DNA from: a virus
DNA length: 23,206 nucleotides
IMG/VR virus record: IMGVR_UViG_3300032331_000479
Coordinates: 1-23,206 of that record
Reading direction: 5' to 3' (one strand)
This document shows positions 6,168 through 12,979 of the stretch, piece by piece (positions within the stretch are counted from its first letter, which is position 1; each line of letters begins with the position of its first letter). The notes under the pieces are model-generated. The model was given only the letters and a program-made list of their open reading frames with translations. It did no database searches and was not told where the DNA came from. Position numbers and translations under genes: made by a program.

Positions 6168-6650
6168 TTATTCTATTCCTGTAATGATTTTAACTTCTAC
6201 AGGAGAACCATCTGGGTTACCACTAATCTCATGTTGTGTTGATTCTTTCCATTTAGCACGAGACTTAAGCCAGAATATCATAGCAGTTGTGTTGCCTTCT
6301 TTAGCTTGTTTGAATAAGGTTTCAGCTACAGAAGCATTAGCCTCAATACGACCTTTGTCAAGCTCTTCTTTATAATACTTGACAAGTGTATCATGTGATA
6401 TATTTAATACGGAAGCTATATCTTCGTGGCGTGTCCCTACTGTAGATAAAGTGTAAACCTTAATTCGGGTGTCCGCATTTGGAAGGTGCGGGGGTCTTCC
6501 CTTTCCTACCTTGTCAGCTTCTGTCTCTATAGTCTCTATGTCTGTATGTATAGCGTCTATGTCTACCTCTATCATGTCAGTAGATAATACCTCATCGACT
6601 ATCACATCATTGACCATATTGTCAACAGGGTTATTCGTTTCATTATTCAT
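6168..6650 (-). CDS. Terminase small subunit
   Basis: The 160-residue DNA-recognition subunit of the packaging machine. After an acidic, Thr/Ile/Asp-rich N-terminal 45 residues comes a helix-turn-helix region, VGTRHEDIASVLNISHDTLV. The helical segment ANASVAETLFKQAKEGNTTA and IFWLKSRAKWKE follow, a combination characteristic of phage small terminases. The DNA-binding domain would select the packaging site on phage DNA, and the helical region forms the ring that recruits TerL. It is the first gene of the leftward packaging and head operon, reading away from the divergent regulatory region at 6651-6809. Confidence 0.85.
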   Translation of the reverse strand: MNNETNNPVDNMVNDVIVDEVLSTDMIEVDIDAIHTDIETIETEADKVGKGRPPHLPNADTRIKVYTLSTVGTRHEDIASVLNISHDTLVKYYKEELDKGRIEANASVAETLFKQAKEGNTTAMIFWLKSRAKWKESTQHEISGNPDGSPVEVKIITGIE

Positions 6651-6691
6651 TTAATACTTATACCTTTATATATATAACAGATTTATAGCTG

Positions 6692-6730
6692 TTTACAATT
6701 CGTTTACAATTACTTACAATCTTTTACAAT
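6692..6730. repeat. Four helically phased TTTACAAT repeats
   Basis: TTTACAAT occurs at 6692-6699, 6703-6710 and 6723-6730, with a one-base variant CTTACAAT at 6713-6720. The steps are 11, 10 and 10 bases, one DNA turn each, so all copies face the same side of the helix. They lie between the divergent small-terminase and early genes and immediately upstream of a candidate rightward promoter. This is the arrangement of a cooperative activator or repressor site. The binding protein is unknown. Confidence 0.6.
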
Positions 6731-6738
6731 AATAATAC

Positions 6739-6766
6739 TTGACAAGTTAATAGATGAGTTTAATAT
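6739..6766 (+). promoter_or_regulatory. Candidate rightward early promoter
   Basis: A perfect -35 TTGACA (6739-6744) is followed after 16 bases by TAATAT (6761-6766), which matches four of six consensus -10 positions. Transcription would start near 6773 and read the rightward cluster of tiny genes beginning at 6810. The TTGTCAA/TTGACAA palindrome at 6772-6787 lies on the predicted start. Confidence 0.5.
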
Positions 6767-6771
6767 AGGCA

Positions 6772-6787
6772 TTGTCAATCTTGACAA
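6772..6787. promoter_or_regulatory. Operator-like palindrome TTGTCAA-TC-TTGACAA
   Basis: A perfect 7-base inverted repeat with a 2-base spacer lies on the predicted start of the early promoter. The same TTGTCAA and TTGACAA arms recur in the divergent promoter region at 12945-12979, which hints at one regulator for both. The second arm could alternatively be a -35 element. Confidence 0.45.
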
Positions 6788-6809
6788 ATAACTATAAGGA
6801 TACTTAAAC

Positions 6810-7070
6810 ATGAAAGTCTCTAACATCGTAAACAATAGAAATAACATCGTTGCAAATCAATTCATAATTGAAGATGACAAGGCAACCTACTTCCAATCTT
6901 ATCGTTCTATCATAGTTAAGATAGAAAACGGACAGACTATCCTTGACCCTGTTTATTGGAACTATTCAAGAACTACTTCTAAACATAGAAGCACATTTCT
7001 TAATGAGTCAACCAAAGAGACTCAAAGGAAGATTAAAGAAGGTGTTTACATTCTAGCTAACTTAAACTAG
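6810..7070 (+). CDS. Conserved phage early protein (DUF8033-like)
   Basis: The first gene of the rightward block encodes an 86-residue soluble protein, with AAGGA upstream of the ATG. The stretch YFQSYRSIIVKIENGQTILD, followed by YWNYSRTTSKHRSTFLNE, resembles a small uncharacterised family seen in many phages and plasmids, which I tentatively equate with DUF8033. No catalytic motif can be seen. It stands alone behind the promoter at 6739-6766 and is followed by a terminator-like hairpin. It may therefore be the most strongly expressed early product. The function is unknown. Confidence 0.65.
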   Translation: MKVSNIVNNRNNIVANQFIIEDDKATYFQSYRSIIVKIENGQTILDPVYWNYSRTTSKHRSTFLNESTKETQRKIKEGVYILANLN

Positions 7071-7157: not shown

Positions 7158-7232
7158 ATGGATTTAATACTAATCATAGGCTTTTATATATTCATTAAAC
7201 TATTAATAACTATGTCAGACTTAAACGCTTGA
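7158..7232 (+). CDS. Tiny membrane peptide (24 residues)
   Basis: The product starts MDLILIIGFYIFIKLLITMS and is almost entirely one hydrophobic helix, so it is a probable single-span inner-membrane peptide. AAGGAG lies nine bases before the ATG. Its stop codon is embedded in a TTGACAA element. No family is recognisable. Similar tiny hydrophobic peptides in phage early regions are often host-modulating or simply uncharacterised. Confidence 0.45.
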   Translation: MDLILIIGFYIFIKLLITMSDLNA

Positions 7233-9223: not shown

Positions 9224-9252
9224 TAAAAAAGCCCTTTTATTTACAAGGGCTT
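9224..9252 (-). terminator. Intrinsic terminator of the leftward replication operon
   Basis: On the minus strand AAGCCCTT pairs with AAGGGCTT (8-base stem, 8-base loop) and is followed directly by a run of Ts (TTTTTTA). This is a classic rho-independent terminator. It lies 71 bases past the end of the Q-like gene and would stop leftward transcription before the DUF6496-like gene. On the plus strand no T run follows, so it is directional. Confidence 0.75.
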
Positions 9253-9322
9253 AAAGGTACTACGGAGATTATGGGCGAGACTATCCCAACAACCGAATTA
9301 TAGCATAAAACTTATACATCTG

Positions 9323-9649
9323 TCAAGCGACAATACGCTTTGAAGCCATAGTTAATAGGTTATCAAAGGCTAGTGCCAATTGAGTTTCATAATCATTGTA
9401 TTTGGAAGTTTTGAGGTATCTAGCATAAATAGCATCTTTTTGGTCTGGTTCAAGGCTAGATATGCAAGCATCTATCGTTCTAACGTTAGTCATGTCCATA
9501 TCTGATAGCATCTCTTCAAACGCATCACTTGTAGACTCTCCACCACTAATCATGCCTAGTGACTTGCTTGGATAGCCTAGTTTGGTATTAGGTGTGTGCA
9601 TCCATCTAGACCAATCATCAAGTATTTGTTTTAATCTATCTATGTGCAT
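9323..9649 (-). CDS. Q-like antiterminator / sigma-region-4-like regulator candidate
   Basis: A 108-residue protein starting MHIDRLKQILDDWSRWMHTP. The layout is an N-terminal DWSRWM helix, then GYPSKSLGMISGGESTSD, then CISSLEPDQKDAIYARYLKT and a final helix. This matches small phage late regulators of the antitermination-Q/RinA-like type. In these, a C-terminal helix-turn-helix resembles sigma-70 region 4 ('L-x-P-x-Q-x-x-A-I' followed by YL). Such proteins turn on late genes. It is the last gene before the terminator at 9224-9252, a usual position for Q. The exact family is uncertain. Confidence 0.55.
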   Translation of the reverse strand: MHIDRLKQILDDWSRWMHTPNTKLGYPSKSLGMISGGESTSDAFEEMLSDMDMTNVRTIDACISSLEPDQKDAIYARYLKTSKYNDYETQLALAFDNLLTMASKRIVA

Positions 9650-9967: not shown

Positions 9968-10278
9968 GATACATCCATCACTTTACATTCCCATTTTCTA
10001 CCGTTCTTGACCCACCCATGAATATGCACTTTAATACCGCTCTTACGAATCATTCCTATATTTTCACTATCAGCAATTTTCTTTGCCCTTGCTGACATAT
10101 TGCTAGCAGAGGTAGTTTGAACCGCAAGTATCTCACCTTCCTTAACTGCAAGTAAGTCTATGAAGCCAAACATATCCTGTCTTATTTTAGCGAAAGCGTT
10201 CCATCGTTCTGTAATTGCTACTAGGTATCCATCTGCTCTTAATTTCTTAAGGCTTAACTGCGTTGGGCTTGTCGCCAT
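9964..10278 (-). CDS. PD-(D/E)XK nuclease (VRR-NUC / resolvase-like)
   Basis: A predicted nuclease whose core reads KLRADGYLVAITERWNAF, then MFGFIDLLAVKEGEILAVQT. The catalytic pattern is Asp (FGFIDLLAV), then E-I-L-A-V-Q, equivalent to the E/Q-x-K line of PD-(D/E)XK enzymes, here with Gln-Thr. Phage relatives act as Holliday-junction resolvases or flap nucleases in recombination. I chose ATG 10278 (MATSPTQLSLKK) because relatives usually start a few residues before TPTQ. An upstream in-frame ATG at 10311 would add 11 residues. It sits with NinB and YbcO-like genes, supporting a role in recombination. Confidence 0.7.
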   Translation of the reverse strand: MATSPTQLSLKKLRADGYLVAITERWNAFAKIRQDMFGFIDLLAVKEGEILAVQTTSASNMSARAKKIADSENIGMIRKSGIKVHIHGWVKNGRKWECKVMDVS

Positions 10279-10447
10279 CAAATTGACTTTCGTTAGGTTT
10301 AGATACGCCATCTATAAAACGTTTTTCTACTTCACCTGTAGACTTGTTTAATTCGTATTCATAATCTTTTTTAAATATTTTATTCCAATTGTCTTCTGCT
10401 TCTTGTTCAGAAATTAACAATGGTCTTCTTGTAGAACCTTTACCCAA
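10247..10447 (-). CDS. Conserved small phage protein (MGKGS-type)
   Basis: A 66-residue protein starting MGKGSTRRPLLISEQEAEDN and continuing WNKIFKKD. The 'MGKGSxRRP...NWxxIF' opening recurs in many phage replication regions, in proteins of unknown function. The C-terminus is hydrophilic and Lys/Asp/Asn-rich. It overlaps the YbcO-like gene by eight bases and the nuclease gene by 32, so translation of the three is probably linked. The function is unknown. Confidence 0.65.
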   Translation of the reverse strand: MGKGSTRRPLLISEQEAEDNWNKIFKKDYEYELNKSTGEVEKRFIDGVSKPNESQFDGDKPNAVKP

Positions 10448-12951: not shown

Positions 12952-12979
12952 ATAATTATTTACAAATACTTGTTGACAA
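12945..12979. promoter_or_regulatory. Operator-like region between divergent promoters
   Basis: TTGTCAA (12945-12951) and TTGACAA (12973-12979) form an inverted repeat containing both -35 boxes. Between them lies ACAAATACTTGT, an imperfect palindrome, next to TTTACAAA, similar to the repeats at 6692-6730. A Cro dimer could cover both -35 boxes. Confidence 0.5.

Follow-up and report, generated by a model that had tools for sequence, protein, structure and literature searches.

The predicted early promoter of the phage studied here is preceded by a tandem array of four short direct repeats, each about one helical turn from the next, and the same kind of array is conserved in most related phages and recurs in promoter register in unrelated ones. 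Judged from its sequence and placement, the array may well be, and on balance probably is, an activator site of the early promoter for a host regulator of the OmpR/PhoB family, with a separate repressor operator at the transcription start.

The window, i.e., the whole stretch of 23,206 nucleotides analysed, is a 23 kb virus record with a GC content of 34.7 % and represents a phage fragment. The nearest annotated relative of its portal protein belongs to MW202481 (Podoviridae record, Manatee Spring; 66 %), and that of Methylophilales phage Venkman is likewise related (58 %). The gene content is lambda/P22-like and includes a Cro-like protein, a replication initiator, a DnaB-like helicase, Erf, an exonuclease, NinB and SSB. 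Intergenic region 6651–6809 separates the leftward terS gene from a rightward run of small genes (Table 1); the terms early and late are used here on the basis of gene content and layout. Between the early genes, a 24-codon ORF (MDLILIIGFYIFIKLLITMSDLNA) with its own ribosome site is located at 7158–7232, and TTGACAA occurs 15 times in the window (6.7 expected), repeatedly just 5' of early start codons. On the minus strand at 9229–9326, a perfect TTGACA-18-TATAAT promoter followed by an intrinsic terminator was observed, which we take to be the lambda PR'-tR' layout. A weakly Q-like gene (9323–9649; Phage_antitermQ, E 0.017, below cut-off) has its 3' end where this promoter begins, and read-through from the promoter would run antisense across the early rightward operon and then reach terS. 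A like layout was seen by eye at ~10150–10290 of record L001.

Table 1. Features of the early promoter region (coordinates of the window)
Feature	Position	Strand	Remarks
Terminase small subunit (terS)	6168..6650	-	phrog_309; divergent gene; presumed late expression
Short inverted repeat AACAG...CTGTT	6676..6693	.	abuts array copy 1; script returned TATAA/TTATA for the window
Array of four phased half-sites	6692..6730	+	TTTACAAT (6692-6699), TTTACAAT (6703-6710), CTTACAAT (6713-6720), TTTACAAT (6723-6730)
Early promoter -35, TTGACA	6739..6744	+	8 bp past last array copy
Early promoter -10, TAATAT	6761..6766	+	spacer 16; promoter 10/12 matches
Dyad TTGTCAA-TC-TTGACAA	6772..6787	.	over predicted start; putative repressor operator
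First gene, early rightward operon	6810..7070	+	86 aa, phrog_21575

The original prediction of four repeats spaced by one turn just upstream of a TTGACA promoter was confirmed at 6692–6730 (start-to-start spacings of 11, 10 and 10; gap of 8 bp to the -35). Single octamers resembling TTTACAAT (at most one mismatch) are found at chance level across the whole window (69 versus 66.1 expected); the non-random part of the array is its tandem phased arrangement. The half-sites read TTTACA or CTTACA rather than GTTACA, and the array occupies a single place within the window. In many relatives, the -10 at the matching place reads TATTAT or TATGAT.

For the search in related phages that had been proposed as a check, 80 terS loci were gathered via the terS protein, independently of the motif, and 58 distinct usable upstream regions (hereafter rows; window included) were compared. 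Nine rows with identical first 200 bases had been collapsed, L049 and L055 were too short, and L069 (starting inside a gene) as well as L071–L081 (11 distant loci, aligned from residue 49 onwards) were left out of the count; no phased pair was seen in the upstream DNA inspected for the latter 11. The repeats proved to be conserved: 42 of the 58 rows carry two to four phased copies (15 rows with four, one with three and 26 with two), as compared to a mean of 0.07 of 58 rows with a chain of at least two copies in Markov-resampled upstream regions. By the test used, the array is absent from 16 rows, among them L003 with a degraded array and L047, which is cut. The array of L015 (GTTACAAT, GTTACAAT, ATTACAAT, TTTACAAT) is intermediate and links the GTTACA form with the TTTACA/CTTACA form. 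In six array-less rows (L039, L040, L042, L052, L053 and L059), the early TTGACA is closely preceded by a dyad, GTGAT-N11-ATCAC, which gives the impression that a different activator site has taken the place of the array.

In each of the 42 array-bearing rows, the copies are spaced by 10 or 11 and the last copy lies 7–8 or 16–18 bp from the next TTGACA-type early -35, i.e., at either of two positions separated by about one helical turn. Since this register is fixed while the distance between array and terS start varies from 34 to 208 bp, the array belongs to the early promoter and not to terS, which bears out its earlier assignment as a regulatory part of the former. An affiliation with a terS promoter was ruled out by ten rows (L021, L023, L029, L035, L038, L041, L046, L048, L054 and L060; terS start of L038 approximate) with an array 67–208 bp from terS yet in register with the early -35.

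Beyond the terS family, the viral collection contains 47 stretches with the two-copy form GTTACAATTTGTTACAATTT (a 20-mer), with flanks that are often very different, and 84,980 cellular genomes (257 billion bases) contain 12, which are scattered across phyla and for the most part lie outside promoter register. The arrangement GTTACAAT-N2-GTTACAAT followed by TTGACA (pattern GTTACAATNNGTTACAATN{6,36}TTGACA) occurs in 44 viral stretches, as compared to four with the array turned round and one with the motif reversed. After deduplication by exact flanks only, the 34 gaps to TTGACA were 17 (18 times), 7 (eight times), 16, 18 and 28 (twice each), 25 (once) and 34 (once, in a cellular MAG). The TTTACAATNNTTTACAAT form was detected in 31 stretches, with gaps of 7, 7, 8, 8, 16 and 17 outside the family. 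Out of register are group K (gap 25) and isolate contigs with the TTTACAATNNTTTACAAT form (gap 26), in which the match lies inside long open frames. Fourteen of 16 hand-set phage groups outside the terS family are in register (one value per group), and phasing over the 16 groups yields a Rayleigh R of 0.82 at 10.5 bp (p 1e-5), a test independent of the gap bins, which were picked after the data had been seen. Distant proteins are common to groups A/B and G/I; the groups L176–L188 stood outside this protein comparison.

When TTGACA was not required and the best-scoring promoter was taken instead, 46 of 65 other viral instances were in register (34/36 at a score of at least 10), versus 2/12 in cellular genomes (0/3 at a score of at least 10); these instances are not independent, and the score uses hand-entered weights. 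L091 and L095 possess homologous promoters with an array gap of 7 in one and 17 in the other, a difference of exactly 10 bp. Some in-register matches overlap open frames, the longest of 521 codons on the other strand of L164. Individual records harbour several sites: five in G283, three in G281, two in G280 and three in G282, where one site straddled the boundary between the pieces in which records were scanned and was found separately. The reversed motif had no match in a whole-record scan of G280–G283. By eye, four of the five G283 sites precede an in-register promoter; among the sites of the other records, not all do.

The element recurs in phages of 32–50 % GC. When the two-copy element was compared with annotated phage records, the 35 records retrieved at E up to 10 were taken to be chance matches; the longest match (H52; OR846639, an unannotated contig; 26/27 bases) is followed by no clear promoter. 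In a further set of viral contigs (L116, L084, L092, L105, L111, L118 and L119), an AAATCAA..CTTA-type inverted repeat adjoins GTTACAATTTGTTACAATTT, which has no obvious promoter after it, and L116 carries five GTTACAATTTGTTACAATTT copies within 8.7 kb. Among the open-licence PMC papers searched, none was found on a near-invariant tandem site in helical register across unrelated phages, nor on the 16-base string of the element. Tandem activator sites are a known kind of element; the sharing of a near-invariant one by unrelated phages was not found in this literature.

Information on hosts came from megablast searches, in which L114 matched Methylophilaceae phage P19250A. Together with the relation between the window and Venkman, this match ties two array-bearing groups to phages of Methylophilaceae/Methylophilales. 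No match was retrieved for L176, L158 and L091, and L195 yielded only a 46-base stretch, annotated as tRNA in one of two matches. Venkman, the nearest cultured relative, is devoid of the array, as is P19250A, the promoter of which is homologous to that of array-bearing L090 and L114. Because P19250A retains the core promoter without the array, and Venkman also lacks it, the array is an add-on module rather than a core promoter part. Venkman (L172) displays by eye other direct repeats of ~11 bp (TCTAGAGG-type) in two of its control regions, at ~6340–6400 and 38060–38150, and no TTTACAAT repeats; the ~11-bp repeats may be an element of like kind built on a different half-site.

Features read directly from the DNA are the tandem direct repeats, their fixed register to the -35 within and across phages, a strong orientation bias, several element copies per phage genome and the occurrence of the two-copy form at two positions one turn apart. 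In the proposed mechanism, the array would serve the early rightward promoter as a tandem run of direct half-sites (core T[TA]ACAAT), which recur at every helical turn on one DNA face and cover approximately positions -81 to -43 relative to the predicted start. Dimers of a response regulator of the OmpR/PhoB family would bind half-site pairs head to tail, and the bound regulator would help RNA polymerase, by a class I/II-type contact, to start transcription of the early operon as soon as the DNA has entered. The regulator would be that of the host, such that early transcription would be tied to the state of one of its two-component systems; the start dyad would be the operator of a separate repressor, which would shut the early operon off later. 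An activator rather than a repressor is suggested because all copies are located upstream of the -35. The array agrees with OmpR/PhoB sites in its tandem direct half-sites at a period of 10–11 bp (in the window and all array-bearing rows) and in its position upstream of, and in helical register with, the -35. Exact GTTACA-N4-GTTACA is present in the GTTACAATTTGTTACAAT form of relatives and other phages; the window copies have TTTACA/CTTACA instead.

No Trans_reg_C (OmpR-type DNA-binding) domain was detected in any of 32 phage records, with a control that matched in 10 of 14 named genomes; most of the records are fragments, so that a phage-encoded regulator could be missed. A host regulator is favoured by this result together with the lack of matches to the window's Cro-like, HTH and 105-aa proteins described below. 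On the cellular side, a host regulon with exact GTTACAATTTGTTACAATTT was looked for in the 84,980 genomes and not found; with the exact site that rare, a host activator would need weaker sites on its own genes. GTTACAN4GTTACA was only about two-fold over control in 274 genomes (92 places versus ~49, both hand-counted).

A regulator encoded by the phage itself, which would bind the array and time early or middle transcription, is possible though unlikely. The preponderance of the 20-mer in viral stretches (47, against 12 in 257 billion cellular bases) is what a phage-specific system predicts, two to five element places exist in single phage genomes, and the window encodes three candidate binders, namely the Cro-like protein, the small HTH-like one and a protein of 105 aa that gave a weak winged-helix match. 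Against this stand, besides the missing Trans_reg_C domain, the absence of a universal protein across the array-bearing groups compared (blastp; contigs partial) and the reasoning that a first-firing early promoter cannot easily await a phage product. Moreover, none of the three candidates had a match in the 15 unrelated array-bearing records searched; these protein searches covered 21 of the 32 records of the Trans_reg_C set, mostly the longer ones. The original proposal of the Cro-like and small HTH proteins as binders is therefore not borne out. Outside the window, the small HTH protein had a match only in G277 (30 % identity) and none in the array-bearing relatives MW202481, G275 and G276; despite its earlier label, it matched no HTH family.

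Likewise, the suggestion of one regulator common to the early promoter and the Cro/replication region did not hold. TTTACAAA is indeed present at the window's Cro region (12959–12966), but as a single copy of a kind occurring at chance level in the window, and it is absent between the two divergent promoters in six Cro control regions (L041, L046, L001, G275, G276 and G277); the G277 Cro is 97 % identical to that of the window. What recurs at the window's Cro region is TTGACAA, as -35 of the two divergent promoters. The dyad of the early promoter does not occur in the window's Cro region or in those of G275, G276 and G277, and Cro is hence not obviously its repressor.

UP elements and phased A-tracts act just upstream of the -35, and the repeats are AT-rich, phased at 10–11 bp and situated at this very place. 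It is nevertheless rather improbable that the array is merely an A/T-rich UP element or bent DNA, for which the polymerase alpha subunit or curvature would suffice without any activator. The C of TTACAAT is kept in the 42 of 58 protein-fetched terS rows (the core being fixed in the test), the same element is used in phages across the whole GC range given above, which curvature alone would not need, and copies are also located a full turn farther off (gap 16–18 or 28). Overlapping tandem promoters, in which TTTACA of one copy would serve as -35 and TACAAT of the next copy but one as -10, can be composed from the window (TTTACA-17-TACAAT, 6692–6720; TTTACA-16-TACAAT, 6703–6730; each 10/12), but are very improbable given that 26 of the 42 array rows have only two copies 10–11 bp apart, which makes such a pair impossible, and that the array holds register with a separate TTGACA promoter. 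Replication-origin iterons, suggested by short direct repeats in an AT-rich intergenic region with an adjoining inverted repeat, can practically be dismissed, as the element occurs at several places per genome in phages with the two-copy form rather than in one origin region (the window itself having one place) and, across phages, in promoter register and in one orientation.

The second part of the proposed activator-plus-repressor arrangement, the dyad over the start, had been described as a perfect palindrome; its 7-bp arms are perfect, while the two central bases are not self-complementary. TTGTCAA-tc-TTGACAA over the start was found in 22 of 53 rows (five of the 58 were left out, having no complete promoter or being too short), and other rows display GTAAAC-ataa-GTTTAC, GTAAA-N6-TTTAC or GTCAA-N6-TTGAC at the start. 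A position that stays the same while the half-sites vary is suggestive of a repressor operator of several specificities. Over the 53 rows, the longest inverted repeat is not rare by itself (mean shuffle fraction 0.26), and the case for the dyad thus rests on its recurring sequences. Arrays located within ~47 bp of terS are often directly adjoined by an inverted repeat, the arms of which differ but remain complementary (ACAGGA/TCCTGT, AACAAG/CTTGTT or TGACT/AGTCA); the case for this repeat is modest, since the longest arm beside the array averages 5.0 in the 42 array rows versus 4.1 in shuffles.

As a separate observation, sigma-54-like -24/-12 elements (YTGGCAYRN4WTGMT) were detected in 12 of the 58 terS-family rows (L022, L023, L031, L035, L036, L048, L054, L056, L058, L060, L061 and L062), versus a mean of 0.000 in Markov-resampled rows, and also in L096, L090 and, near 31700, L194 (KX815270). 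Those of the terS family point into the early operon and lie upstream of the array or early promoter; in five loci, among them L096 from outside the family, the element directly precedes the array. CTGGCACAGTCTTTGCTT of cultured phage P19250A recurs in L090 (by eye). To our knowledge, phage early regions would be an unusual place for sigma-54 promoters, and a literature search on sigma-54 and phage early genes retrieved nothing evidently related.

More tentatively than for the window itself, the distribution of the element raises the possibility that unrelated uncultured phages have converged on a near-invariant tandem site for a widely conserved host response regulator of the OmpR family, placed in promoter register, and that their early transcription is gated by it. 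If true, early phage transcription, and perhaps whether an infection proceeds at all, would be gated by an environment-sensing host two-component system, and in the corresponding intergenic region of relatives the array would be exchanged for, or joined by, a sigma-54-type promoter or another dyad in the manner of pluggable host-state sensors. A range of uncultured phages would then wire their first promoters to host signalling via a site recognisable by eye, the conditions of firing would become predictable, and a ready promoter-plus-enhancer part would be at hand for testing. Even without the identity of the protein, the shared phased element is a recognisable promoter signal that may be of help in marking operons in phages of mostly unknown genes.

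Several bacterial regulator sites resemble the array. TorR binds the four-decamer tor boxes of the torCAD promoter, which are likewise four tandem direct repeats spaced by about one helical turn upstream of a promoter, but differ in sequence and serve a bacterial operon. The Pho box of PhoB, with direct repeats of the CTGTCAT type (PMC4168254), was rejected as a candidate, as the window repeats read TTTACAAT and not CTGTCA. The WalR/VicR box of Firmicutes is a direct repeat of the OmpR/PhoB family, TGTWAH-N5-TGTWAH (PMC4168254), and the minus strand of window copies 1–2 reads TGTAAA-N5-TGTAAA; WalR/VicR is, however, a regulator of Firmicutes, whereas the nearest cultured relative of the window phage infects a Methylophilales bacterium. 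The AgrR box of Cupriavidus metallidurans, bound by a regulator of the OmpR family, has the half-site ATTACA (PMC7380067) and shares with the array a TTACA core, extra in-phase direct half-sites and the activator position, but its own core is an inverted repeat (6-4-6) and not a run of direct repeats. A further likeness is to enterobacterial OmpR sites and the RstA box, with the published consensuses GTTACAnnnnGTTACA for OmpR and TACATNTNGTTACA / TACAtntngtTACA for RstA (PMC7315122; PMC4117788); OmpR-P binds 20 bp composed of two tandem 10-bp half-sites (PMC7380067). Tandem direct half-sites, the TTACA core and the 10-bp period are common to these sites and the array, and the phage two-copy form (GTTACA-ATTT-GTTACA) is an exact match to the OmpR consensus and has a single mismatch to the RstA box. 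Unlike OmpR and RstA sites, the element is phage-borne, often identical in sequence and held in fixed register to a TTGACA-type promoter, with the half-sites TTTACA/CTTACA in the window.
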